NCBI GenBank assembly: GCA_963681505.1 | Contig: OY811986.1 | Coordinates: 2,265,554-2,329,553, forward strand | Length of the DNA: 64,000 bases | Direction of reading: 5' to 3' | From: Eunapius fragilis | Taxonomy: Eukaryota > Porifera > Demospongiae > Spongillida > Spongillidae | Part shown: positions 725-51,125 of the stretch, piece after piece | Position numbering within the stretch: the first letter of the stretch is position 1 | Layout: each line of letters starts with the position of its first letter | Notes under the pieces: generated by a model | Database searches by the model: none | What the model was told of the DNA's origin: nothing | What the model saw: only the letters and a program-made list of their open reading frames with translations | Translations under genes and position numbers: made by a program

Positions 725-1000
725 GTGCCTGAGATGAGGCTGGTACTGGTGGCCAAGATGAGACTGGTACAGGTGACTGAGATGAGGCTGGTACTAGTGG
801 CTGAGATAAGACCGGTACTGGTGGCTGAGATGAGACTGGTACTGGTGGCTAAGATGAGGCTGGTACTGGTGGCTGAGATAAGACTGGTACTGGTGGCTGA
901 GATGAGACTGGTACTGGTGCCTGAGATGAGGCTGCATGGTACTGGTGGCCAAGAAGTGCCTGAGATGAGGCTGGTACTGGTGGCCAAGATGAGATCGTAG
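725..1000. repeat. Minisatellite, about 24-bp unit, second block
   Basis: The same repeat family as the block at the window start (core gatgagactggtactggtgg), here about eleven copies, mostly 24 bp. The two blocks are separated by the G-rich array, so the original satellite was probably split or expanded around it. Confidence 0.85.
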
Positions 1001-2560
1001 AAAGACATAAGTAAGATCCAACAGTTGCTCTGAACTATGAAAGAATAACAGCTGTTCATTGCCCTACATAACGCGCCGTTAGGACCTACTAGTAACCAAA
1101 CATATTAACGATACTCCCGGTATATCTTGCTAACTTTTAGTACATTTGTTCGCCGTCAGAAAAAAAAAAGTGGCTACAAACCATTGCAAATATCTATTAG
1201 TACCTTTAGTTCCCTTTACGAACAACCTTTATTTCAGATTTTCTATTGTCGCAGGCGTGGAGAATCGCTTCTGTATCGAAGAGGTACGCAAAGACTAACC
1301 CGCTTTCAGGGTCCGTAGCTTGCTGTAGCAAGTTGACTACGCCTCGTGGTTTGCGCCACAAATAGAAAAAATGTGTTCCTTTCCTTGTACCGTGTTAAAA
1401 TGGCGATTAGTCCATCGGTGTTATTGAGTGAGCTAACGTCTTAGGTTGTCAAGGTCGTTGTTAAGGGCATGACATAATCATTTCAATTTTTCGGAAAACG
1501 GATCTAGTGTCCACAAAACATTGGGCCGCAAACACCAGTGTATAATTGTAAATAATGATAAGAATTAGTTTGATCGAATATCGTAATAAAGTATATGTGT
1601 ACAATGCGTCAATACATTTTCTATGGACTTTGAATTACGCAATGACCGAATACCGCCTAATCCTTATGACCGCCAATTTCTCGATATGAGCCTCATTAAT
1701 TGCGGTTTTTAGCGTATCTATATTGCCGTCATCTGTTTTCCTTCTTCTACCTTCAACATGTTCAGCTCAGCAAGGATCTTGTTCAAAGTAGGACTAAGTG
1801 GCACAGACACTTGTGCAGATTCATTTCTTGCGGGCTGGGATACATTTGAGGATTCATTTCTTGAGGGCTGGGACACACTCAAATGGTCATTTCTTGTTGA
1901 GGATTGTTAAAGTCGTGTACAGTCAGCGGCGGATCAAGATTTTTTTGGGGGGTGGGGTGGGGGGGGGGGGGGGCACGGAATGATGGGTGTGGCTGAGGTG
2001 GGTGTGAGAGGGGGAGTGCCCCTCCCGCCCCAGCTAGGGGTATGGGGGAGCGCTTAAAGCTCCCCCATCGGGGTCTGGGGCCGAGCCCAGAAGCTTTGCA
2101 ACTTTATTATATTCCACGTTAGAAAAAGCTGTCTTCACCGGTTGGGTTTGCGCCGTTACCCCCACCCCGGCACCCACTTACAGCATTCCTGCTGGTGAAG
2201 AAGTTAGTGACTTTCAGTCTTTGCCTCTTTTCTACGTTTAGTTAGGTACTTGGATAAATCACGTAACTACCGTAAAAAATTGTCTCCCAAAAATTGTAAC
2301 GTAACTTTTGACTGCCGGAGAGGATTGATTTGAGGCGATCGTTTGTTTGCGCTGGTTTTGAGTTTTGTTGTGCTTGCTATATTCTGTTAGCCCATGGCTT
2401 CTTTTAGCATTTGCTATTCGTTGTATACGGTGAAACGATTCGCAGTAGTACGTTGTTGGCGTGTCAAAAAAGGGTACGGTTTGATGGTTATAGAATTTTG
2501 TAGCGCATTGAATGGGTTGCATGAAATACATATGAAGGCATTAAGAACACCTAGAAACGG
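1001..2560. other. No gene recognised; repeat-derived DNA
   Basis: No supportable coding region. At 1820-1890 a sequence of about 33 bp containing catttcttg and gggctggga is repeated twice. At 1924-1975 the start agcggcggatcaagattttt followed by a G run resembles the poly-G MITE end seen at 21,339. The following 100 bp is G/C-rich and palindromic. Confidence 0.5.
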
Positions 2561-2568
2561 CTTCATAT
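2561..2568. repeat. 8-bp target-site duplication, left (cttcatat)
   Basis: The octamer cttcatat immediately precedes the CAGCGCCGG terminus and recurs exactly at 6057-6064 just after the opposite terminus. Eight bases is the size expected for hAT insertion. Confidence 0.92.
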
Positions 2569-3133
2569 CAGCGCCGGCCCGGGTTAACCGGGGCGCGAGT
2601 GGCGCAAATGCGCCAGGCCCACCGAAGATAGGGGCCCGTTTATCTACATAGGTACACGCCTTCAATTGATGAATTTAATTAGATGACGTAATGTACGCAT
2701 ATAAATTATGCGCTGTACTTGCGCAAGTTAGCACTAGCTCCGCACGTGACGATCATGATATGATTTGCAAGTGAAGTGACAATTAGAATAGCATCACTGG
2801 TCTTATTATTCTCAAGTTGCCAATTATTGCGCACTATTTTTGATCGTGTAGCACGACGTCTTCAATAAAGAACATTTGAGCGACGGAGAAAAGCAGAAGT
2901 CGAAGCCTCTGTTTCACAACATCCAAAAATCAGTTCATTTTTTTTCTGCATCTACTTTGACTACCGCTACCGGTAGCTTTCCATTGCTCACTGCAGACCA
3001 GTTTCCATCGTGCCATTTGGGTCTTCATCAACTGCCGACGGCAATACAGTAACAGTTGTCACTCATCATGTCGGTGATCTTTTTTCAGCCGTAGTACATA
3101 CAGAGCCTGCAACAGAGGCACCACCTGCTTGCA

Positions 3134-5734
3134 TTGAAGAAAGTTTCAGCATCAAATGAATCTATTCAGATGGATAATTCCCAATGCGAAGATGTCACTG
3201 AAACAGTTCATCAAGATGGTGCAGTATTCCTCCATCAGATGGAAACTGATCCTGCTCTGTGGTCTATTAATGAGAACATGATACAGTATTGGCTGCGAGT
3301 CGGTCCAGAGCTATGTAGGAACAGGGATGGAGTATGTGCTAATTCTACAAAGCAAGGAAAGTTAATCAGGTAAATTGCGCATTTGCACGCCGGCTCCGCA
3401 GCAGTATATAATTCACACAATGTCAAATTGTCACTTGCCATGCAAAGAAAGTAATATAAAAAGAAGAGCGAGTAAATGTACACTATCATCGGCGCTATGT
3501 AGGTACAGAGATTTGCACGAAACCAGCTATGCGTCATAGTACTATTAATGCAGTTCATGCATGTCATTACATACATGTACATGCATGTAAATCTATGAGA
3601 TAAATAGTATATATATTTAATGCTTTGTACTCTGTCTGGCCCATGTAGGAAGCTAAATGAGACAGCGTTCACAACGCTGTCTCCAATTGGAGAAAAGGTT
3701 GAAAGAAACTGGCTGATGTATTCCCCATCAACAGGATGCGTGTTTTGCTTTGTCAGCAAACTGTTTTCTATAAACAGTGTAAGCAATTCCTCTAGTCTAG
3801 CAACAACAGGTTTTGATTCGTGGGATCATATTGGTCGGCTTAATGATCATGAACGTTCTGTTCAACACAGAGAATCTCTTTCAAAGTATGCTATTCGCCT
3901 AGAAAAACACGAGACAATAGACCACTGTATCATAGATAGTTATGCAAGGGAAAATTCATACTGGAAGGAGGTTTTGAGAATTAAGAGTAGTTTCAGTAGT
4001 TACGTTTCTTATCACTCGTGGACTAGCTCTTCGTGGCAGCAATGTGGTTTTTGGATCAGAGCACAACGGAAATTACCTTGATGCTTAGAGTTGCTTTCTG
4101 AATATGATCCGTTTCTTGCACAACACAGAGAAATATGGTAATAGGGGACGTGGCAATCCATCTTATTTATCATCTACAATATGTGAAGAGTTTGTTTTGC
4201 TCATGGCAAGGGAAGTGAGGCAAGTTATCATTAAAGAGATTGCTTCAGCAAAGTACTATTCGTTTAGCGTTGACTCAACACCAGACATCTCACATACGGA
4301 CCAGCTGACGTTTACAGTTCGCTACGTTCATGACGCTGGAATACCAACTGAGCGTTTTTTTAAGTTTGAAGAAATACATTCCCACACTGGTTTAAATTTG
4401 TTCAACACTATAATCGACATTCGTAAAGACTTTAGGCTTGATCTCAAAGATTGTCGAGGCCAATCGTGTGACAATGCTAGCAACATGTCAGGAAAGTATT
4501 CTGGTGTGCAGGCCAGGGTGTTGGAAGAAAATAATAAAGCGTCTTACATTCCTTGCATGGCACACTCGTTAAATCTATCAGGAGTCTCAGCAGCAGAATC
4601 TTGTGTCAACGCTGCATCATTTTTTGGATTTGTTGAAAAGTGTATGTATTTTTTTCTGCATCAACTCATCGTTGGAATCGTTTGAGAACAGTGCTTAGTG
4701 CTGTCAATGCAGTTGAAAGATCACTTTTACCAAAACGGCTTTGTGAAACCAGGTGGTCTAGTAGATCGGACGCGCTGAATTCCATGTCGCAGCACTATAA
4801 GGTATACCATGATGTTTTACAGCAAATTGCTGACGATCCCTTGCAAAAGTGTGATACACGATCTAAAGCACTTGCAATGGCAAATATAATGGACACACTG
4901 GAAACAGTTTTTATGACAGTGTTTTGGAGTGCACTGCTTCAAAGAATACACGAAAGCAGCCAGCTTCTCCAGTCCACTACCATAGAAAAAGGATCTGTTA
5001 TTGCTGTATTGAAGTCTCTTCTGCATGGATTTCTGGAGGCTCAAAGAAGCTTGTTTGATGATTATAAGGCTAGAGCAGTTGCTATTAGCAAGACCCCATG
5101 CTTTAAAGAAGTGCGAGTGCGACGAGCAAAGCGCGTCTTTGGAGATTCTAGTGAGCCTGATGTTGTGATGTCTTCAGAAGAGAAATTTAGAACTGAAACG
5201 TTCTACGCTATACATGATCGTATTGTGACCGATCTCAACAACAGAATACGTGCATATTCAGAAACGGACACTCGTTTTCTATTTTTAAGACACCATAAAC
5301 TTGAGAATTTTGATGCCGTAAAAGATTCCTTGTCTCGATTAACATCGTTCTATTCCGATGATCTTGATGCTGAAATTTTTGATGAATGGTTGCAGTGGAC
5401 AGAATTTGAGAAGGCTTTGTATCCAAATGATGCATCGAGAAGGCCGGCACATGAAATGCTGTCCACTTTAAGAAAACACCATGTCGAAAGTGCCTTTCCT
5501 AACATATTCATTGCACTGCGTATATACTTAACTCTTCCAGTATCAAATTGTACTGGAGAGCGGTCATTTAGCCACCTGAAGAGAATTAAAAATGCTCTCC
5601 ACTCGACTATGGATCAAGAACGATTATCGAGCTTAGCAATATTGAACATAGATTCTGAACTTGTTCGAGAAATTGACTATTCCAAGCTAATCGCCAACTT
5701 TGCCGAACTCAAATTACGCCGTAAACCTGTTTAA
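3134..5734 (+). pseudogene. hAT transposase (TTF-type zinc finger and dimerisation domain), frameshifted
   Basis: This is the cut-and-paste transposase of the surrounding element. A first exon (3134 to about 3370) ends at a plausible gt donor, and the frame resumes after an ag at 3649. A TTF-like zinc-finger stretch follows (NWLMYSPSTGCVFCF, then DSWDHIGRLNDHERSVQH). The RNase H-like catalytic core is at 4260-4500 (SVDSTPDISHTDQL and CDNASNMSGKYSG). The C-terminal hAT dimerisation domain (TGERSFSHLKRIKNALHS) ends at 5734. The reading frame is broken near 3980, 4085, 4128 and 4655, the last in a run of seven T. The last 364 codons are one open frame. The architecture resembles animal ZMYM1-like hAT proteins. 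With four frame breaks it is a dead copy. Confidence 0.88.
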
Positions 5735-5812
5735 AAAGTACAAGGTTGCATTACTATTATTATAAAAGTAGATCATTCTAATAAATTTGTATAATTGTTG
5801 TTATATGTCAGA

Positions 5813-5880
5813 GTATCCAAAAGATGCATTGAGAAGGTCGGCACATGAAATGCTGTCCATATAAGAAAACACCATGATGA
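5813..5880 (+). repeat. Second copy of a transposase C-terminal segment
   Basis: About 68 bp downstream of the hAT stop codon repeat, with mismatches, the coding stretch at 5418-5487 (shared blocks ggcacatgaaatgctgtcca and aagaaaacaccatg). It is a short internal duplication inside the element's 3' non-coding region. Confidence 0.85.
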
Positions 5881-6056
5881 TTGTGTGAAGGATTAGTTAT
5901 AATTACATCTGTGGTAGTAAATTCAAATGTGACGCTTGCTGATAGCAGCGTTCCACAATTATTAATTCAACGCTGTGTGTTGGGAGACTTTTATTACTAA
6001 GGGGGCCCATTAAATTTACCCTGCGCCAGGCCCATTAAACGGTTAATCCGGCACTG

Positions 6057-6064
6057 CTTCATAT
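6057..6064. repeat. 8-bp target-site duplication, right (cttcatat)
   Basis: Exact copy of 2561-2568, directly following the hAT right terminus (rc CAGTGCCGG). Confidence 0.92.
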
Positions 6065-6750
6065 GGTTTAAGGTACGCAATTATCGTGAAAGCTAATAGC
6101 TTTTATGACAGTGGGACGTCATACCTATTTGCCCTAACGTTACTAAGATATGTATCTGACCTTTCGTACGTAGGTAGAGTGTGTTAACGAGGTGTTCTAT
6201 TTAAAGCGCACCTTTTTTTGCCGTGGGTTCTTTAGCTAGATTATTTTCAGACTCTGCTGCTTATGTAGTAACAGCGCCTTGCATATCACGAGATTCTGAT
6301 TTAGCGCAGTGCTCTTATCAATCAAACCAATTTAATCAAAATTTGTCATGGCAACATGCAATGTTAGTTTATTATTCATGTTTTAATACTATGTTTATTA
6401 AACTTTATATTTTTATTCAACAGTTCTGTGTGTAGTTGCAGGGATAATGAAGGCTGTTGTGATTTGAAGAGTTTTAAAAATGACATTAATGAACGTAATG
6501 AACTGCAAGTACCCATGATACGAAAGGGGCTAGTGTTTTACATCCACACCAATATAGCATATCAACGTTTAGAAAATACAAGAAGTCATTGCATCAATTC
6601 TTGAGCACTCTGCTGGAAGCAGTGTCACCATTACACCTGATGCGTTGCGGTGGGCAAAACATCATATTATTAATATATTGTCAAAATTTAAAAAAAATCT
6701 TACAAGATGTTGGGCTGAAGTAGAGGTGTTTCTCAATGAGCAGTTTATAG
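6065..6750. other. No gene recognised
   Basis: AT-rich sequence with no domain-bearing frame and no clear repeat structure. A 70-codon frame at 6223-6435 has no recognisable features and I do not call it. Confidence 0.5.
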
Positions 6751-6754
6751 TGTA

Positions 6755-6973
6755 GAGGGGTACCTATTCCTCTGGTAGTGGGATAACCATGGTAGTGGTA
6801 GTGGGGTGCCTATTGCTCTGATAGTGGGATAGCTATTGCACTGGTAGTGGGGGTATACCTATTCCACTGGTAGTAGGATAGCTATGGTACTTGTAGGGGA
6901 GTTCCTATTGCTCTGGTAGTGGGATAGCTATGGCTCTGATCTGGTAGTGGTGTACCTAGTACACCACTACCAG
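6755..6973. repeat. Minisatellite ending in a perfect hairpin
   Basis: Irregular tandem copies (about 35-42 bp) of cctattgctctggtagtggg followed by atagctatgg. The array ends in a perfect inverted repeat at 6941-6973, with 14-bp stems ctggtagtggtgta / tacaccactaccag and a 5-base loop. The final stem is the repeat core turned round. Confidence 0.85.
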
Positions 6974-7097
6974 TGCAATCATGCGACACATTTTGGTTGT
7001 GTAGAATTAGAGTAGTCAGGATGACATGGCTGTTACAGGTGGGTGCAGCAAATGAAAAAACAGTCGTACAAGAATATATACAGCCTTACAAATGAAA

Positions 7098-8606
7098 GTG
7101 TAGCTATGAGAAGGCCTTCTCTAGGGGCTCCTCCCACTCCATATTACCAGTCATCTACACCAAAGTGGGTACGTCTGTTTATTATTCTATTTGAGATGCA
7201 CCAATCTACTTACGGTAGTGGCATGATGTGTGAACTGTAGTTCTCTTTGAGAGGCAACCTGCGATGTCGGTTTAAATAATTCGAGGTGATTGTTGTTGTT
7301 GCTGCTGAAGATTACAAAGAAGCATTTTAATGGAGACTGAATCAAACAGTTGATGGTTGTGCTTTATGTGTGATGATTCATTTATTCATGTGCAGGTGTG
7401 AGTGTATGAATGCATGATTGTGTGCACGTGTACCTACTAAGTTCAATCTTGAAGCATCTGATACTGAGTTAATTAACTCAAGTTGCAAGTTCTCTACACA
7501 TGTACCTTCAAAGGGATCAGCTGCCTCATTGATAATCATGCAAAAGCTAGTCTTTCCCCTGGAAACATTTGCAAATGTCATGATTACCAATGTCATTAGT
7601 AGTGAATTGTTTGCTAAAATAATTGGTTGTCATACCATAATTATACAACCAAATTCCTGTAAGTAATTTTTTAATTTCATATGTAAAATAATTCAATAAA
7701 TTTATAGATGTAAACATAACGATGACCCAACCTTCTACATGATGGGGATTTACCCCATAATGCTCAGGGGAACATCTACCTACCAATTCTATCACCAGTA
7801 CCGTTTTTAAATAGGATCTTGCTGTTCGACATATATAATTTACAGCTGGTAGTATGGAGAACATGAGAAGTACCGAAGATGGAAGAATTGAGCCCATGGG
7901 AGGATTGATCACATCAGAGGCACACCTTGGCTTAAAACAGGTAGGATCAGATGAAGTCTCTATATCTCCATTTTTATCATTGAGGCATTCAGTCCCTAGT
8001 CTGAGGTCCCCCTCAACCTCTGCACATCCCCTCAGAGGTCATACAGTTCATTAGCCTTGGCCAGACTTTTGCTGGACCAACTCCTCAATTCTAGGCTGCA
8101 CACTGCATCCTCAGTGATTGATGGTGAATACCCTATTGTGGACGGATGAAGAGTACAAGTGTATGGTGCTAATATGGTGCATGTGTTAAGTATGGTATTT
8201 GTGTGTGTAATATTTGTGAGAATGTGATGGAATGTGATTTCATGGTGTGTGTAGTGAGATAGTGCAAGTATGTGATGGTACATGTGATGCACATAACACT
8301 GTGTCACTGCATTTCATTTGTCGATGTAACATGTACTCATGCAATGAATGTATGTGGGTGGGGTGTGTGGGTAACCTTTCTTTACTCCTGATATTTCTAC
8401 AGTCGTTGCCTTTGTCCAGCTTGCCAGCTATGGCTGCAATGTCTTCAATGACTGCAATGGACTTGAGCTCTTCTTAAGTGTAGTTCACCTGGTGTGGGGG
8501 ACCATATGTGGGTTTGAAGTGAGAGGAGAGGTTGGTTAGCAGAAGGGCTCCTCAGCTATTTCCTCTCCCTTTTTCCACCCCTATGTAGCTACACCTTCCC
8601 AGTGAA
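7098..8606. repeat. Left arm of a 5.2-kb inverted-repeat element
   Basis: This 1.5-kb stretch recurs inverted at 10,995-12,263. Aligned landmarks include agaaggcctt and gtacgtctgtttattattct near the outer end, tacctactaagttcaatctt, aagttctctacacatgtacc, ttaattaactcaagttgcaa, gaattgagcccatgggagga, and ctcagctatttcctctccct near the inner end. By eye the arms are about 80-85% identical, with several indels. The left arm has about 170 bp extra near 7,690-7,860. No open frame with a known domain lies in the arm. Confidence 0.85.
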
Positions 8607-43880: not shown

Positions 43881-44336
43881 GCGCGCGAAAATTTTTGTGG
43901 TGCGCATTCCAATTTTTCCACAGATTGTACATGTAAGGGGCCGGGGATTGGAAACTAAAGCAATCAAAACCAATAAACGAGTGACACTCCGTTACATTCT
44001 GCCGGGTTGATATGCTATTGTAGTCTTATGAATTTAAATGGCTGTGTTGTTACGTGCGTGCGCTTTCCTTTGCTATTTGAGCCAATTAAAATTTACCATC
44101 ACACTCCGGCAGATGACCTACTTCAAGCAGTGAACTGTATAATTCAGCATAACATTCGCGCGCGAAAATTTTTTTGTACCCCACAGATTGTACATTTAGG
44201 GGGATTAGAAACCGAGACAAACATAACCAATAAATGCGTGCCACTCCGTTACGTTCTGGTTTCCAGGCTATTGTGGTTTTGCGGATTTAAATGGCTAGTG
44301 TGTTTCGTCGAAGATTTGCATTGTACGTTGCATGCG
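43881..44336. repeat. Two direct copies of a segment of about 200-280 bp
   Basis: Unit 1 (from 43,881) and unit 2 (from 44,158) share gcgcgcgaaaattttt, ccacagattgtacat, ccaataaa, actccgttac and gatttaaatggct in the same order. The Ginger1 element is inserted at the end of unit 2. Confidence 0.82.
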
Positions 44337-44340
44337 CCAG
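44337..44340. repeat. Ginger1 target-site duplication, left (CCAG)
   Basis: CCAG directly before TGTCAC. The right side carries CCGG. One C-to-T decay of the CpG, on the other strand, turns CCGG into CCAG. Confidence 0.75.
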
Positions 44341-44490
44341 TGTCACTGAATTGTTTATCTCCCTATAATTTCATCCCCCGCCCCGCCCCCGCCCCCCCGC
44401 GTAGTTAAATCCGGAATAATTTATCCTCCTGGGCTAGATTATTCCGGGATAGATTATCCTACCTTGAAATAGTTCCCCCCCCCCCCCCCA
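44341..44490 (+). repeat. Left TIR of Ginger1 element
   Basis: TGTCACTGAATTGTTTATCT, then C-rich, then ccggaataatttatcctcct and attattccgggatagattat. Pairs imperfectly with 50,590-50,720 inverted. Confidence 0.8.
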
Positions 44491-44517
44491 TCCCAAACAT
44501 GTATTAAACATGACCAC

Positions 44518-45965
44518 GTGAACAGTCATTGCATACCGCACACAAAGCACAGCAACTGTCAGATGGATGGTGAAGAATACAACGATATGGTTCGTTTCCT
44601 TGAGAGCAAAGACGATAAGCACCGAACTTGGCCTCGGAGGGTAGAAGAATCTAAAGATAAGGAGGCAAAAAGGGCATATCGCAAGAAATGCGAAGACATT
44701 GCCACTCATGACGGTCTTCTGTTTAAGACTAACAGGCGGAAGAAGCATGAGACTGAAGCGTTGTCGTCTATGCGAGCTGAGGATCAAAGCAGGTACCGAG
44801 TGATAAAAATGGATGAAAAGATGCGCCTGCTCGAGAGCGTCCACAAAGATCCAGGAGGGGGTCACTTTGGTGTTCATAAAACGTAAGCACCGCATGCACT
44901 GCTGTTAGCGCTTTTGATTTGACCAATTGCATTCATTAAGTGCCTGTATATCTAATGTTTCCTCTGACTGCGTGTACATGGATTCTTATTACAGGCAAGT
45001 GAAGGTAGCTGAGTGGTATTACTGGAAAGGCATGACTAAGGATCGATGTAGCTGAATATTGCAGCACTTAGGCTTTTTTGTCAAAAAAGAAACAAAATGC
45101 CCAAGAAGACAGCAAATCTCCATCCAGTAGGAGTTCCTAACCAAGCATTTGCTCAATGGGGAATGGACCTGGTGGGTCCGTTATCAGGTGTCAATGTCTG
45201 TTATCTGATGGTAATGACAGAGTATCTGACAAAATGGGCAGAGGTATATACCATACCTAATAAAGAAGCAATGACAGTGTTTAGGTGCCTTAAAAAGTTG
45301 ATAGGAAGGTTTGGGGTACCAGTAACCATAATTTCAGACCAGGGACGAGAGTTTTGTAACTTAGGAATATCACGGCACATCTGTACTGCATACCATCCCC
45401 AAAGTAACGGCATTACAGAGAGATATAATCAAACAATTTGTGCTTGTTTAAGTACGTTCTCTGACGGTGGAAAGCTGAATTGGGAGGACGATTTGGATCT
45501 TATATTGCTTGGTTATCGCTCATTCATGCAATCATCTTCACTGTATTCCCCATTTGAACTTGTTTATGGTGTGAAAGCAAGGCTACCTATTGAACTAGAT
45601 CTGCCACACATACGTTTCAACATGATCAAGATGGCAATCATATATGGAAATGTTAATGGAGAACTTGAAAATACTTGAAGATAAATGAAGTAATGCTCAT
45701 AAGAATATTCAGAAAGCTCAGGCCACCCAGAAAAGGCAGTATGACAGAAAACACATTAGGCAAGGAGAGTCTAAAGTTGGGGATGAAGTATGGTATGCCA
45801 ATTCCAGACTAGACACATGAAAGGGTGATTAACAACAAGAAGGTTTGGCCCAGTTTTAGTTACCAAAGTATGTGGAAAATAACACATATCTGCTTACTGG
45901 TCTTAAAAGAATGTACCACTCAGATATGCTAGTGAAGGTAAAGAGGCCTAATACAGAAGATTTGG
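44518..45965 (+). pseudogene. Ginger1 transposase (gypsy-integrase-like DDE), damaged
   Basis: Transposase that would cut and rejoin the element's ends. The N-terminal exon (44,518-44,886) ends at a gt donor and holds the His half of the zinc finger (HKDPGGGHFGVHKT). The next exon starts after the ag at 44,994 with the WYYWKGM motif; the Cys half is disrupted by a stop and a frame change near 45,050. The core, from 45,097, keeps D (GMDLVGPL, 45,166), D (IISDQGREF, 45,337) and E (GITERYNQT, 45,418). Only 26 residues separate the second D and E instead of the usual 35, so about 27 bp are missing. A GPY/F-like stretch (RFGPVLVTKV, then NTYLLTGLKRMYHSDML) lies at 45,840-45,945 across frame breaks. 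Enzyme activity is very unlikely. Confidence 0.87.
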
Positions 45966-46329
45966 TACCATAAAATCCTGGTGATGATACTTGTGATGAT
46001 GCTCAGCATTCAGCTGCACAAGAGACAGTTGTCAGTACCAACAATAGTGATAGGGCATCATTGCAAAAGCTTGAATGTGATGATGGTCAACAGATATGAG
46101 TTGAAGGGGTGTCTAGTAGAGCTAAGAAGAGAACAAACCACTTGGATCATTCACAGATTCCCGAATTGAAGAGGATCAAGGCTGCAGATGTGGCAAAGCC
46201 TGAGTCTGAGGGTGTTCAACAAGCAATGCAAAGTGATGCTAAAGGAGGGATTGCTGAATGTATGGAATGCAATGAAACAGTGTCCTTCCACATAGAAGAT
46301 AAGTATTGTATTCTGTATCTTGTGGGGAC

Positions 46330-46475
46330 AAAAGCAAAGCTGCAAAAAAGTATGATACTGCTGTAATATCTCAAGTATGTGGAGAGAACACTTACTTACT
46401 TGCTGGTCTAAAGAGAAAATACAAATCCAAACAACTTGAAAAAGTAGTAATGCCAACATGTAATCAAGCCAAAAA
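46330..46475 (+). pseudogene. Second copy of the GPY/F-like module
   Basis: The frame reads KYDTAVISQVCGENTYLLAG then LKRKYKSKQLEKV. It closely parallels the module at 45,850-45,950 (TKVCG, NTYLLTGLKRMY, LVKV). The duplicated block suggests a tandem chromatin- or DNA-contacting module behind the integrase core. Function is inferred only from its likeness to the GPY/F region. Confidence 0.6.
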
Positions 46476-46550
46476 AGTATGTTAGGAACTTTCTGCACGG
46501 TTATTTACATTGTTTATGTGGGTATGCCAGTATGAATATGTTCTTAATCT

Positions 46551-47310
46551 TTGCTTGCAGGAAACAAAGAATTATTACAGCTCAAAGGTGGCAACAAAAA
46601 ATTAATATCCTCATTGTTGACAACTATACCAACTGCAGCCCAGGCGCATGACAGCTTGGAAAAGTGTGAAGATGTAGAAACAAAAACAACTTTTGCATCA
46701 ATATTCAGCAAAACATTCAAGCCTATTGCAAATACAGCTTTGCAGGGTGTGATGAATCAGAAGCAGAGCTCTGATACATGTACCAGTCATGCAGCACTAA
46801 TGAGGAACATAGCAAAATTTGGTTTGAAAGTTTGCATAAATCTACCCTCAGATGGAAATTGCTTATTACAACTATGTGTGATCAACTGATGAGAGCCTTT
46901 GGAGTACGTAAGCGGCATCTGAGCCTACAAAAGGAAGTAGTTAACTATATGAAGTGCAACCCTACTACAGTAAGTTTTCATTTCTTAGCATACAATAGAC
47001 GTACTGTTTTTATACATGGCTATTGAAATTCTTACAGCCTGAAGGGACTCCATTTCTCAACTTCATTGATTCATTTGAATCTTGGGAATCATACCTGGTG
47101 CATATGGAGAGACCAGGAACTTGGGGAACCCATATAGAGCTAGCTCTTTCCAATATGTTGTCTGTAACATTCTGTAATGTTACAAATAGCAGTGTTGAGG
47201 ATGCATCTATTGTTTGGCTTTATCTGTATTCAAAGGAATTGCACTGACAGATGCTCCAGTACTAACTATTGGTTGTGAAATGGAGTATCACTACCACAGC
47301 TTAGCACCCA
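46551..47310 (+). pseudogene. OTU-type cysteine protease domain of the Ginger1 element
   Basis: OTU proteases usually remove ubiquitin. A predicted exon starts after the ag at 46,560. The catalytic Cys motif is LPSDGNCL (Cys codon 46,860-46,862), after which the frame shifts by one base. The helix region MRAFGVRKRHLSLQKEVVNY follows to a gt donor at 46,971. The next exon (from 47,039) reads FESWESYLVHMERPGTWGTH then IELALSNMLSVTF, the classic OTU middle. The catalytic His lies in EYHYHSL at 47,283-47,303. The Cys and His positions are intact. The frameshift directly after the Cys breaks the gene unless the assembly is wrong there. Confidence 0.83.
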
Positions 47311-47639
47311 TTACATCAGCTGATTTACATTTTCAAAATCCTTAGAAACGATTGTGCAATCAACCCACAAGCGCATTACCACATCAATCAGTGTCGATGA
47401 GACAGACAATGGTGAGACATCTGTGAGTTGCATTGGTTTAGTTATTTTGTTTCCTTCCTATATTAAAATTCTTATTTTGAAAAAGCTGCAAACCAGTCAC
47501 ATAATACCACCTGTAAAACAAGTACCAAGTCTTTCAGTGTGGAATATGATGGTAAGATATGTACTTGTAGGTAATTAAAAATCATACACTTCATATTGTT
47601 CTGTTGGCTTATTCAATATCACCTGTTTCATTACAGTGC

Positions 47640-48527
47640 AATGATAACAGCAAAGTCAGGAGCATTCTGTGTAACGGTGTCCGAATTTCTAGAGCTATTA
47701 AATGGGAATTGCATTGGAGATAATGTAGGATTTTTGACAGTTATATATAATAGCTCACTAAACGTTTTTAAATCTCACTCTAGGTAATCAATATATTTTT
47801 CCACATGCTTGAAAATGATGGTCTAATGAGAAGGCAGAAAACTGTAAGTCACAAGCTTTACGAATATTATATAATGTTATATTTTAGTACATAACATTTT
47901 GCTTATGAAATAGTTGGATGTTAAACTCTTTCATCTTCACAATGCTATCTGAGGAAAATGGCTATTTTATGCACTGGATATCATCAATTATTGAGGTACT
48001 ATTGGTGTAAAAAGTTAATAAAAGCTGAATTGAAATGATTCAACCTATTAAGACCAAAAGCATTTTCGAATACAGCTATACATCCTAATGCCATGCAATA
48101 TCCCAGGCCATTGGTTCCTTGCTGTAAGATAGATGGTTTGTATTAATGGTATTTTATTTTAATGGGGTTTATATTTCAGGTGATAGACATGGGAAAAAGA
48201 CAGGTAATCTTCTATGATTCAGCTTTTGAAACAATTCAGGGCAATGCTGCCACTGTGATACAGTAATTGATATGTGATGTACTGGTTTTTAGTACTTATT
48301 TATTTTATTCATCTGGTGTGTTTTGAAAAATCTAAAGCAACTTCCTGCTGCTAGAACAAAGTAAAAACCAGTATATTGGAACAGGAGATGACAGCAGTGA
48401 CACATGGATATTTTCTCTTTACAAGGTTATATACCTGAAATTTATAATTCATATAATTATTAATCGTTGCAAAGAATTCTACTCTTATGCAATGTAATAC
48501 CTATGACTGTGGTGTATACGTCTGCAA
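47640..48527 (+). CDS. Ulp1-type (C48) cysteine protease domain of the Ginger1 element
   Basis: C48 proteases cleave SUMO or related conjugates. Exon pieces: NGNCIGDN before a gt near 47,725; VINIFFHMLENDGLMRRQKT at 47,784-47,843 (donor gtaagt); HWFLA at 48,109-48,123 (His codon 48,109; donor gtaaga); VIDMGKRQVIFYDSAFETIQ from 48,180 (catalytic Asp in YDS, 48,216); and QCNTYDCGVYVCK at 48,490-48,528 (Gln 48,490, Cys 48,508, donor gtaaac). After splicing, His and Asp are 17 residues apart, as in SENP/Ulp1 enzymes. The His-Asp-Cys triad and the oxyanion Gln are all present. The part between Asp and Cys is only partly resolved, so completeness is unproven. Confidence 0.82.
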
Positions 48528-49510
48528 GGTAAACTCGTTGATGTAAAAATATAAATCCATATTACTACATGCCCATTACAGTGTATTGCTAATAAATTGA
48601 CTCTGAACTTTGTAGTAAGTTATTGGTGCATTGCAGTTACTACAGCCAAATAGAATTCTAATGTAGACAGACAGCATTGAACTTCGCTCGTAACTAGCTG
48701 TGCAGTTGCTAGAATGGTAATAATAAATGTACAAATAGTTTCCCATTTATATGTTCATGTCTCCATACAGTTCAATGTCATCAGCCCACATCAACACCAA
48801 AGCTGTACAATCAATGTTATACCTGTGCTCTGCAGAAGTCCTGAAAACTACAGTAGACAAGGTACACCTGTGCACATGTACAAAGTGGGTCAGCTATAAA
48901 TAATCTCTTCATATATACAGTTTACAAAGAATGGCGTTTTCATAGCCAATGGTGAAGGAGTGCAGGGTGGTATTATGTTCTTCAGTGCATGTAGAGTATA
49001 ACATCATCATATAGTAAAACAATATACATACAAGAACTTATTGCCACGCTTCAAGTGACCGATTCCTGAAGTGAGCCCAATTGATCCTCTACCCAAGATA
49101 TGTAGTTATGAAAGACAAGCAAAGCCCATTCAGGCATTTGTTGACAAATAACATGGTTTAATGGGTTTTTGTGGGTATGATGAACTTTAGAGGTACATTC
49201 AGGGATCAACACATAATTTACCACTTTATCCGAGACATGTCACAAAAATGAGGTCAGCCACAAATGTTTGTATAACCATTGGTCATGAGTTATCTCCTGC
49301 AGGAACATCTGAGGTCGATTTGTCAGAAAACCATTAATTCTATCTTTTTCAATGTTTACATTGATGGATAATGTGACAAGGTTTTCAAAAAAAATTAACG
49401 TTAGTGAACTAAAGTGCATTTTTTGAAAATGGCCTATTGATAACTGTCACGTTGTAAGTTTTAAATTGCACCCTGGGTAAATGAGATTTGTACTCTGTTT
49501 ATGCAAATAG

Positions 49511-49756
49511 GTGGACGCAGTCGAGCATTTTCTGTATGGTATTGCCATTGATGAGGGTTATGGAGGCAACAGAGCAAACATCCTTGCCTTAGATGTTTTG
49601 TATCCAGAGGTATGTAAATTGTGTGAGTTAAAAATAATTACACATCAGGCGTCTATTATATGTATATGAAGTTGATAATCAATTTGATTTCAAACGAGCA
49701 GGGGATGAAACGGGAAGAAGCAACAAAGTATTACGTGGAGAATGTTATGCCCTGAT
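49511..49756 (+). CDS. Probable C-terminal exons of the Ginger1 protein
   Basis: A frame opens after an ag (49,510): VDAVEHFLYGIAIDEGYGGN, then ILALDVLYPE up to a gt donor at 49,611. It resumes after cag at 49,702 as GMKREEATKYYVENVMP and a stop at 49,756. There is no known domain. Assignment to the transposon protein rests on position and splice fit. Confidence 0.5.
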
Positions 49757-50335
49757 TTTTATTTGTGTTTTTGTGTAATGAAATGATACATGGCTGATAA
49801 CGTTATACTTTCAAAAGGCTAGTCGCACAAAATGTTTAACCAAGAGGGATGGGGCCAATGCAAATTGGCGTGATTTGTAATTTCACTCATTTTTGCATGT
49901 TGCATGCATGTGCCCGTCGTGATTCACAGCACAACTTCCTGGCTATATAATAGCTCCACATAATCCAGCATCTATAGATCTTGAGTCCTATTGTATTCGC
50001 GCGCCCACGCGTGCACACACACGCACACACACGACAAAGCATGCATGTAATTGCACCAGAGATAGTATTTGCACCAGAGATAATATTTCATTCCCACTCA
50101 CAACACCATTCTATAGCTTTGGCCTGTGCAGAGGCAAGGTCCACTGAACATTTTTCATTTGGTCTCAACTATTTTATTATTTAATTTAATTTTCTGTTGT
50201 ATCGATATCCTGAAAAAAATGTAATTAAAAGTACTGTATATCTATTAAAAACCAGAGATAATATACAATAATACATCAAACACGCGCACACACTACTCCA
50301 CACGCACATACACCTGCACGCACACGCACGCGTAA

Positions 50336-50517
50336 CACACACACATGTGCACACACACATGTGCACACACACATGTGCACTCACACATGTGCACACACAC
50401 ATGTGCACACACACATGTTCACACACACACATGTGCGCACACACATGTGCACACACACATGTGCACACACACATACGCACGCACACAAACACACACACGC
50501 GCACACACAGAAACAAA

Positions 50518-50568
<51 letters not shown>
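50336..50568. repeat. CA/CATGTG microsatellite inside the Ginger1 element
   Basis: About eleven copies of a 14-16-bp unit, acacacacatgtgc, then (CA)n of about 25 repeats. All long His/Thr- or Cys/Val-rich frames here are repeat translations. Confidence 0.95.
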
Positions 50569-50569
<1 letters not shown>

Positions 50570-50589
50570 TGCAATTAAATTGGTTTTTT

Positions 50590-50720
50590 GGGGGGGGGGG
50601 GAATAAATTATTCCGAGGGAGGATAAACTTTTCCGGAATAATTTATCCGGGGGGATAAACAATTCCGGAATTGATTACCCGGAGGATCAATTGTTACGGG
50701 GGATAATCTATATCGTGACA
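50590..50720 (-). repeat. Right TIR of Ginger1 element
   Basis: Ends ...ccgtgaca-type terminus (tatcgtgaca). Read inward it gives TGTCACGATATAGATTATCC, then several attccggaat / tttatcc blocks and a C run, as at the left end. Confidence 0.8.
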
Positions 50721-50724
50721 CCGG
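50721..50724. repeat. Ginger1 target-site duplication, right (CCGG)
   Basis: CCGG directly after GTGACA: the recognised target sequence of Ginger1 elements. Confidence 0.8.
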
Positions 50725-50771
50725 AGCTCAATTGTGTCAATTTGAGACTGCTGCTGTTCTTTGCAACCAAG

Positions 50772-51125
50772 ATGGATGCGAGTTCTAGTCTCAGTGACAC
50801 TGACAGGAATATTTTTCCAGAAGAACCACACCAGCCCAGAGCATTTCACTTTCCAAAACGAGAGTATGGCTAGAAAAGTGGCAGTAAGATGACGTTTTCA
50901 AACAACATGGTTGGATAAGTGGCAATGGCTTCATTATTGTGAGGAAAATGACAGTGTGTTATGTTACACTTGCTTGAAGGCAAAGTTGGAGAAGAAGCTG
51001 TCATGGGCTGCAAATGCTGACGCAGTATTCTACTGATAGGGGTATACAAACTGGAAAGATGTCACTGTTAGATTTTCTACACAAACCATCACACTAGTGG
51101 GATTAGAGGACTGGAAGCATGCTAC
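50772..51125 (+). pseudogene. hAT-type (TTF zinc finger) transposase first-exon fragment
   Basis: The frame starts MDASSSLSDTDRNIFPEEPH and, with stops and frame changes, continues WLHYCEENDSVLCYTCLKAK, then a stretch ending in a TNWKDV motif. The Cys pair and the W-K-D motif fit the TTF-type zinc finger found in front of ZMYM-like hAT transposases. No catalytic core follows. It lies directly beside the Ginger1 right end. Confidence 0.65.

Follow-up and report, generated by a model that had tools for sequence, protein, structure and literature searches.

Ginger1 transposons start with TGTNR at the 5' end, have terminal inverted repeats (TIRs) of about 40-270 bp and are flanked by 4-bp target site duplications (TSDs), CCGG in 75% and CCGT/ACGG in 24% of cases (Bao, Kapitonov and Jurka 2010, PMC2836005). 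According to the sections of that paper drawn on here and below, elements of 2.6-7 kb encode, in a gene with 0-4 introns, a transposase of about 500-800 amino acids (aa) with a YPYY motif (Y/F-P-Y/F-Y/F) upstream of the zinc finger. The transposase carries an OTU or an Ulp1 protease domain "but not both", and the two domains were proposed to take part in transposition. We analyzed a stretch of 64,000 nucleotides from the sponge Eunapius fragilis (GenBank assembly GCA_963681505.1, contig OY811986.1, positions 2,265,554 to 2,329,553, forward strand), called the window in the following. A first-pass annotation had singled out a transposon at window positions 44341-50720 as a Ginger1 element with both proteases, and had cited the published one-or-the-other rule, correctly as the paper of Bao et al. 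(PMC2836005) confirms in the sections drawn on. The claim of two proteases in one element was borne out. Integrase, OTU and Ulp1 pieces were found in this order at at least eight loci of two subfamilies in the same genome, and both protease domains scored above profile cut-off in an uninterrupted copy, L016. The family departs from described Ginger1 because it has both proteases, 20 introns and a product of 1,232 aa. The published regularity of one protease per transposase, which is a description and not a definition, is broken by this family.

OTU-bearing Ginger1 elements of Hydra, Aplysia and aphid (PMC2836005) are similar to the sponge family in TGTNR ends, TIRs, CCGG or CCGT/ACGG TSDs, H2C2 zinc finger with DDE core, and OTU domain, as far as the cited sections describe them. 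In the sponge family, however, the OTU domain is followed by an Ulp1 domain and a region of 188 aa. The Ulp1-bearing Ginger1 of Hydra (PMC2836005, Table 1) has a comparable integrase-like transposase with a C-terminal Ulp1 domain, and the 6.4 kb of the sponge element lie within the described size range, but in the sponge element an OTU domain is placed between integrase and Ulp1. Gypsy integrases share the H2C2 and DDE core. Other integrases of the sponge genome, many of them in long frames resembling Gypsy pol, were 36-43% identical to the window core. In contrast to a Gypsy long terminal repeat (LTR) retrotransposon, the family has TIRs and CCGG TSDs. No reverse transcriptase was among the families found by Pfam scan in the L016 protein and ten pieces of the window, and the two ends of the window element or of L016 had no direct repeat of at least 50 nt in common. 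The terminal repeats are inverted, and the lack of reverse transcriptase and LTR noted in the first-pass annotation thus held.

Polinton/Maverick elements pair an integrase with a protease of the Ulp1 clan. The sponge family differs from them in its TSDs of 4 bp instead of 6 bp, in its length of 6.4 kb (Polinton length as given in the part of PMC10045372 consulted) and in that no DNA polymerase B or capsid family was found in the L016 protein. The Polinton pairing of protease and DDE integrase is treated in PMC6431247. Mutator-like elements (Ulp1) and Helentrons (OTU) have one of the two proteases each, according to the sections used of PMC2836005 and PMC6431247; their transposase or replication protein is another than that of the sponge family. 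Besides PMC2836005, only PMC6431247 contained both words Ginger1 and OTU among the matches listed, and in its sections seen OTU refers to Helentrons. Neither OTU nor Ulp1 occurred in the main text of PMC12863088 and PMC10045372, within a literature scope that leaves aside Repbase and subscription papers.

Gene model and protein domains

The L016 element (C21:1318654-1325035; positions 1255-7636 of the locus) is 6,382 bp long. Twenty-one exons and 20 GT-AG introns gave a stop-free frame of 1,232 aa. Nineteen of the 20 introns are 49-148 bp long and the first is 235 bp. Exon 2 codes for about 454 aa, exons 5-21 for only about 9-53 aa each.

Domains were called by Pfam profile cut-offs on the 1,232-aa protein. 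H2C2 (residues 80-134, 1.2e-18), the integrase core rve (149-244, 8e-14), OTU (601-697, 1.3e-12) and the Ulp1-type peptidase C48 (860-993, 3.3e-12) were all above cut-off. The profile search proposed in the first-pass annotation had therefore a clear outcome in L016, whereas in the split exons of the window copy both protease domains stayed below cut-off. The D-56-D-35-E residues are present in the integrase core, and the gypsy-integrase-like core claimed for the window was confirmed by an rve match above cut-off (1e-10, window piece 45052-45675, among ten pieces scanned). Among PDB entries, the Ulp1 part of L016 matched SENP1 and SENP2 (1.2e-18 to 3.6e-12) and was closest to SENP1 (1.2e-18), with GHW, YDS, Q and DCG aligned. 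The H-D-Q-C residues of this part are taken by us to be catalytic. The OTU part matched OTUD3 (3.3e-5, around the DGNC Cys) and OTUD1 (1.5e-4). The His of FHFHSL, presumably the catalytic His of OTU, lies outside the matched profile stretch.

The DDE residues, the OTU Cys and His (DGNC, FHFHSL) and the Ulp1 His and Asp are the same in L016, the window copy and the C2 copy described below; the Ulp1 Gln and Cys were readable in the exon-piece matches. The OTU motifs DGNCL, GTWGTH and YHYHSL and the Ulp1 motifs GHWFLA, FYDS and QCNTYDCGVYVC were recovered in the window as first reported. Between window copy and L016, 99 of 145 residues are identical in the OTU domain and 114 of 186 in the Ulp1 domain. 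The C-terminal 188 aa of L016 gave no Pfam or NCBIfam match, and the sole PDB match was at E 1.4.

A GPY/F-like module occurs twice after the core in both subfamilies (ISKACGKNTYLLTGLKRRYHSDQLEHV and ISKVCEDDTYYLSGLKRKYHLNQLEKV), at aa 399-425 and 521-547 of L016, both in exon 2, and at 45860-45970 and 46303-46482 in the window. The modules of L016 read LGPVCIS and YGPAVIS, in which GP is kept and Y/F is not, and a weak SH3_Tf2-1 match (0.012) was below cut-off. Upstream of the zinc finger, a W-P-F-F-like pattern was noted by visual inspection alone, both in L016 and in the window copy.

The order integrase-OTU-Ulp1, the exon linking OTU and Ulp1 and most intron borders are common to both subfamilies. 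At the intron borders of L016, the window copy has GT at 18 of 20 donors and AG at 18 of 20 acceptors. Identity between window copy and L016 was 68% in exons (2424/3570) and 47% in introns (474/1001).

Copies in the same genome

The window's own genome (219 Mb, 24 contigs) gave 129 matches to the whole element by BLAST. One group of them, at C2:2416674-2427877 (L009, here the C2 copy), is the same element with inserts and is 88% identical over most of its length. Element positions 1-923 matched at 91%, 923-4812 unbroken at 88%, 4809-5408 at 90%, 5404-5471 at 96% and, after a Gypsy-type insert, 5569-6380 at 79%. Integrase, OTU and Ulp1 pieces follow in the same order. As seen by eye, the locus is interrupted by an inverted-repeat segment at 1398-2296 and by a Gypsy-type retrotransposon from about 6180.

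A protein search with the integrase piece, together with the OTU family search, revealed a sister subfamily of five loci (L016, L017, L018, L019 and L020), about 78-84% identical to the window integrase. All five have the integrase, OTU and Ulp1 pieces in order. The second half of OTU is deleted in L017, where the Ulp1 Asp is also replaced by Gly. L018 and L019 (C5:660k and C5:678k) are mirror images with identical match values and are probably one inverted duplication. The search for other copies had been set beforehand as the test on which a single two-protease element could fail; it returned both domains together in the C2 copy and in the sister subfamily. OTU and Ulp1 do not belong to two separate elements, because the two subfamilies share their order, the linking exon and most intron borders.

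All three pieces in order were found at the window, C2:2416674, C21:1318654, C5:5405k, C5:660k, C5:678k, C5:928k and C8:77858, that is at at least eight loci, or seven independent ones if the mirror-image C5 copies count once. OTU is incomplete at C5:5405k and C8:77858. OTU and Ulp1 were found without an integrase match at C3:12043k and C19:662k. Ulp1 pieces without an OTU match were found at C1:13591k, C1:16264k and C6:457k (and weakly at C4:10860k and C4:10804k), and OTU pieces without an Ulp1 match at C1:10068k, C1:21079k and C1:7823885. The single-protease loci are read as fragments or deletion copies. These counts rest on searches with integrase, OTU and Ulp1 protein pieces, compared by coordinates, and are lower bounds because the searches score best candidates only. 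A genome search with PF02902 gives no family count, since it also missed the split Ulp1 of L016.

Target sites and mobility

TGTCAC at 44341 and GTGACA ending at 50720 were found at the termini of the window element, as first reported. Its inverted repeats are imperfect: element positions 6250-6345 matched 54-146 with 76% identity over 96 positions. The termini of L016 gave an inverted match of 79% over a stretch taking in about 123 bp of the element. The CCGG-type 4-bp flanks of the first-pass annotation were confirmed for the family and not for the window copy. CCGG flanks L016 and the C2 copy at both ends, and ACGG flanks L011 at both ends. The window copy has CCAG to the left and CCGG to the right. 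Among the loci scanned for an intact TGTCAC-type end, CCGG adjoined 20 of 23 listed element ends and ACGG or CCGT the other three; these ends are not all independent, because some loci share flanks or duplicate ends. The target duplications of the family, CCGG or ACGG, fit the published proportions.

The window copy is flanked on the left by a repeat of which two copies were read; both continue across CCGG or CCAG and on into different sequence. The right flank is another repeat, preceded by different sequence in one copy read. The window copy has no genuine TSD, because its flanks are two repeat families that continue past the site elsewhere. Recombination between two copies is the most likely explanation of the mismatched flanks. 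No empty site for the window insertion was found among the matches listed.

Among the 129 matches, 18 loci with one and the same internal deletion joint (721-723 to 4127-4129) were counted by eye. The deletion removes the integrase core, OTU and most of Ulp1, and such copies would have been moved in trans, as the shared deletion suggests and as is expected of copies of this kind. Past cut-and-paste movement of this Ginger1-type family is well supported.

Selection on the encoded protein

The ratio of nonsynonymous to synonymous divergence (dN/dS) between L016 and the window copy was 0.09 for rve, 0.16 for OTU (confidence interval (CI) 0.07-0.28), 0.16 for Ulp1 (CI 0.08-0.27), 0.15 for the 188-aa C-terminal region (CI 0.07-0.27) and 0.34 for the GPY region. 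Between L016 and the C2 copy the ratios were 0.11 for rve, 0.15 for OTU, 0.19 for Ulp1, 0.20 for the C-terminal region (50 codons only), 0.27 for the GPY region and 0.49 for the linker. Shifting the reading frame raised the ratio to 0.91-3.00 for rve, OTU, Ulp1 and the C-terminal region. Third codon positions differed most in these four parts, with values of 0.27, 0.19 and 0.47 by codon position for Ulp1. Purifying selection and identical catalytic residues indicate that both proteases were most likely kept by selection while both lineages were active.

Interpretation

The results are, with high though not full confidence, best explained by a Ginger1-type cut-and-paste family with a single long gene for an H2C2, D-D35-E integrase-like transposase, two GPY/F-like modules, an OTU domain, a SENP-like Ulp1 domain and a C-terminal region. 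Several points weigh against this explanation. The Ginger1 class is a provisional assignment by the features of the published description, and the GPY/F and YPYY motifs are atypical (GPV and GPA; W replaces Y/F). The exons of L016 were picked by hand from alignment and open frame, and an independent check of their borders matters for this reason. At the aligned borders the window copy has no AG at introns 2 and 4 and no GT at introns 15 and 17. In the C2 copy 14 of 17 donors and 12 of 17 acceptors are preserved; one of the absent acceptors falls beyond the end of the sequence compared. A single mRNA spanning integrase, OTU and Ulp1 is a prediction from genomic exons. The OTU-Ulp1 linker is poorly kept, with 19 of 72 residues identical between window copy and L016 and a dN/dS of 0.46 (CI 0.19-0.88). 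Its frame control hardly separates (0.48 in frame by that script, 0.64-0.66 shifted), so the coding status of the linker follows from splice borders and homology, the shifted ratios being near the in-frame ratio. Synonymous divergence (dS) between the subfamilies comes close to saturation (1.3-1.8), and the intervals exclude undefined bootstrap replicates, of which there were 0 to 48 among the 300 for each part.

The first-pass annotation named as its main alternative the fusion of two nested elements. In this reading, an Ulp1-bearing element or gene fragment would have inserted into an OTU-type Ginger1, and a single copy would show the combination by chance. Ginger1 families with just one of the two domains, be it OTU or Ulp1, have been published (PMC2836005, sections drawn on), and the flanks from two different repeats leave room for the window copy itself being a recombinant. 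Such nesting is nevertheless very improbable. Two subfamilies about 1.3-1.4 apart in dS have the same junction, the same linking exon and most intron borders in common, CCGG is found on both sides of the whole unit in L016 and the C2 copy, and Ulp1 is under purifying selection between the subfamilies. Internal TGTCAC/GTGACA motifs of the window element, the only type of end sought, have no CCGG flank. Recent nesting is ruled out by the sister subfamily and the C2 copy with CCGG on both sides, while an old fusion that was later fixed is compatible with all data and is part of the explanation preferred here.

It is also conceivable, though unlikely, that one transposon has two genes or isoforms, an integrase-OTU transcript and a separate transcript for Ulp1 and the C-terminal region, so that no protein has both proteases. 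Read-through into intron 4 of L016 meets a stop within a few codons, and a shorter product ending with OTU is possible because of this stop, another point against a single long product. The weakly kept linker and the sharp change in exon size from exon 2 to exons 5-21 point in the same direction. On the other hand, exon 4, the linker exon and exon 6 of L016 join in phase with GT-AG borders, and the window copy retains GT at the donor sites of introns 4 and 5, although it has no AG at the position aligned with the intron 4 acceptor. Quite unlikely, too, is that the Ulp1-like domain is not a SUMO protease but a processing protease that releases the transposase and accessory proteins from the 1,232-aa product. 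Within the same clan, adenovirus-type proteases process viral polyproteins, and a long modular protein with a loosely kept linker would suit such cleavage. Ginger-like elements are moreover cited as a possible source of the Polinton protease and integrase (PMC6431247, in the sections used). The best PDB relatives, however, are SENP1 and SENP2, and none of the 24 listed matches was named as a viral protease.

For the single-gene Ginger1-type family, the transposase part would bind the inverted repeats, cut at the TGTCAC ends and insert into CCGG. OTU would remove ubiquitin and Ulp1 SUMO during transposition, near the transposition complex. Judged from the domains, the most likely substrates are the transposase itself, which could thereby be stabilised or regulated, or host proteins of repair and silencing that are present where the element excises and inserts. 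Most of the integrase lies in one large exon, whereas introns are small and dense in the 3' half; the Ulp1 part may therefore have entered as a multi-exon gene. A further, tentative proposal is that of a fused integrase-deubiquitinase-deSUMOylase Ginger1 class, in which an OTU-type element acquired a SENP-like gene of several exons together with the C-terminal domain of that gene. Both activities might then be needed for movement, and mixed ubiquitin-SUMO marks, carried by the transposase or by factors of silencing and repair, might control it.

With at most one protease per described Ginger1 (PMC2836005, in the sections cited), OTU and Ulp1 could be taken as interchangeable. The comparable purifying selection on both suggests different, non-redundant jobs, and allows their proposed part in transposition to be tested by inactivating the two active sites one by one. 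The uninterrupted L016 copy can be read as one gene for both an integrase and an Ulp1-clan protease. This is relevant to the Ginger-like origin of the Polinton integrase and protease considered in PMC6431247, as far as its sections used here go.

The window copy

All features of the window copy are on the forward strand, and the 6,380-bp element is a decayed long copy. The imperfect TIRs, with approximate inner borders set by the inverted self-match, extend over 44341-44470 and 50590-50720. Exon 1 (44563-44882, aligned to exon 1 of L016) has the N-terminal part and the start of the H2C2 zinc finger. Exon 2 (44995-46499, by Pfam rve and alignment) has the remaining H2C2, the integrase core and both GPY/F-like modules; it is frameshifted and its 3' border is approximate. 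The OTU domain starts with its catalytic Cys (DGNC) in exon 3 (46646-46969), which has a 1-base frameshift and may start further upstream in a frame open from 46548, and ends in exon 4 (47038-47411; GTWGTH, YHYHSL). Exon 5 (47468-47551), aligned in both subfamilies, is the linker. Exons 6-14 (47637-48716) form the Ulp1/C48 peptidase domain by exon alignment, and exons 15-21 (48771-49755), aligned to L016, form the C-terminal extension of no known family, with TGA at 49753-49755.

The OTU piece 46999-47244 (0.061) and the C48 piece 48457-48543 (0.002) were each alone below Pfam cut-off, because the copy is broken and its 3' half is split into small exons. Compared with L016, 10 in-frame stops were found in 1,170 compared codons, together with several insertions or deletions not in multiples of three. 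The window copy is unable to make the protein because of these stops and frameshifts, and it is a pseudogene, an inactive relic.

Other observations

A CA-rich simple repeat lies inside the 3' end of the window copy (50275-50584); the corresponding 3' part of L016 is occupied by a long tandem array rich in GA (6734-7440). The two flanks of the window copy (44091-44340 and 50721-50970) belong to two different dispersed repeat families, with a further, diverged copy of the left repeat lying before it at a spacing of about 255 bp. To the right of the element, a short open frame (50893-51033) has a Cys/His-containing stretch (HYCEENDSVLCYTC), perhaps a transposase zinc finger, with no Pfam match.

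A third divergent lineage at C8:77858, considered on the basis of 54% identity in the integrase piece, was rejected: the part of the locus read (L036) is 85-90% identical to L016 in DNA and is decayed. The OTU exon of this copy is broken up at 337-1433 by an insert that, as judged by eye, resembles a long interspersed element and contains a poly-A stretch. A host SENP progenitor at C4:10860468 (50% identity in one exon) was likewise rejected, since the locus (L037) reads as a decayed Ulp1 part of the same family, by eye nearer to the window type.

Integrase-like units followed by OTU, distant from this family, were seen in L026 (6423-8381, reverse strand), L034 and L025 (84-2683). OTU was confirmed in L026 and L025, and an end-motif scan found no TIRs in the three units. 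OTU domains also occur at many other places, for example C2:2485599, C3:8807247 and C9:6123882, within open frames about 2,000 aa long whose scores are identical. These frames apparently belong to a separate and recent OTU-bearing element, possibly Helentron-like.

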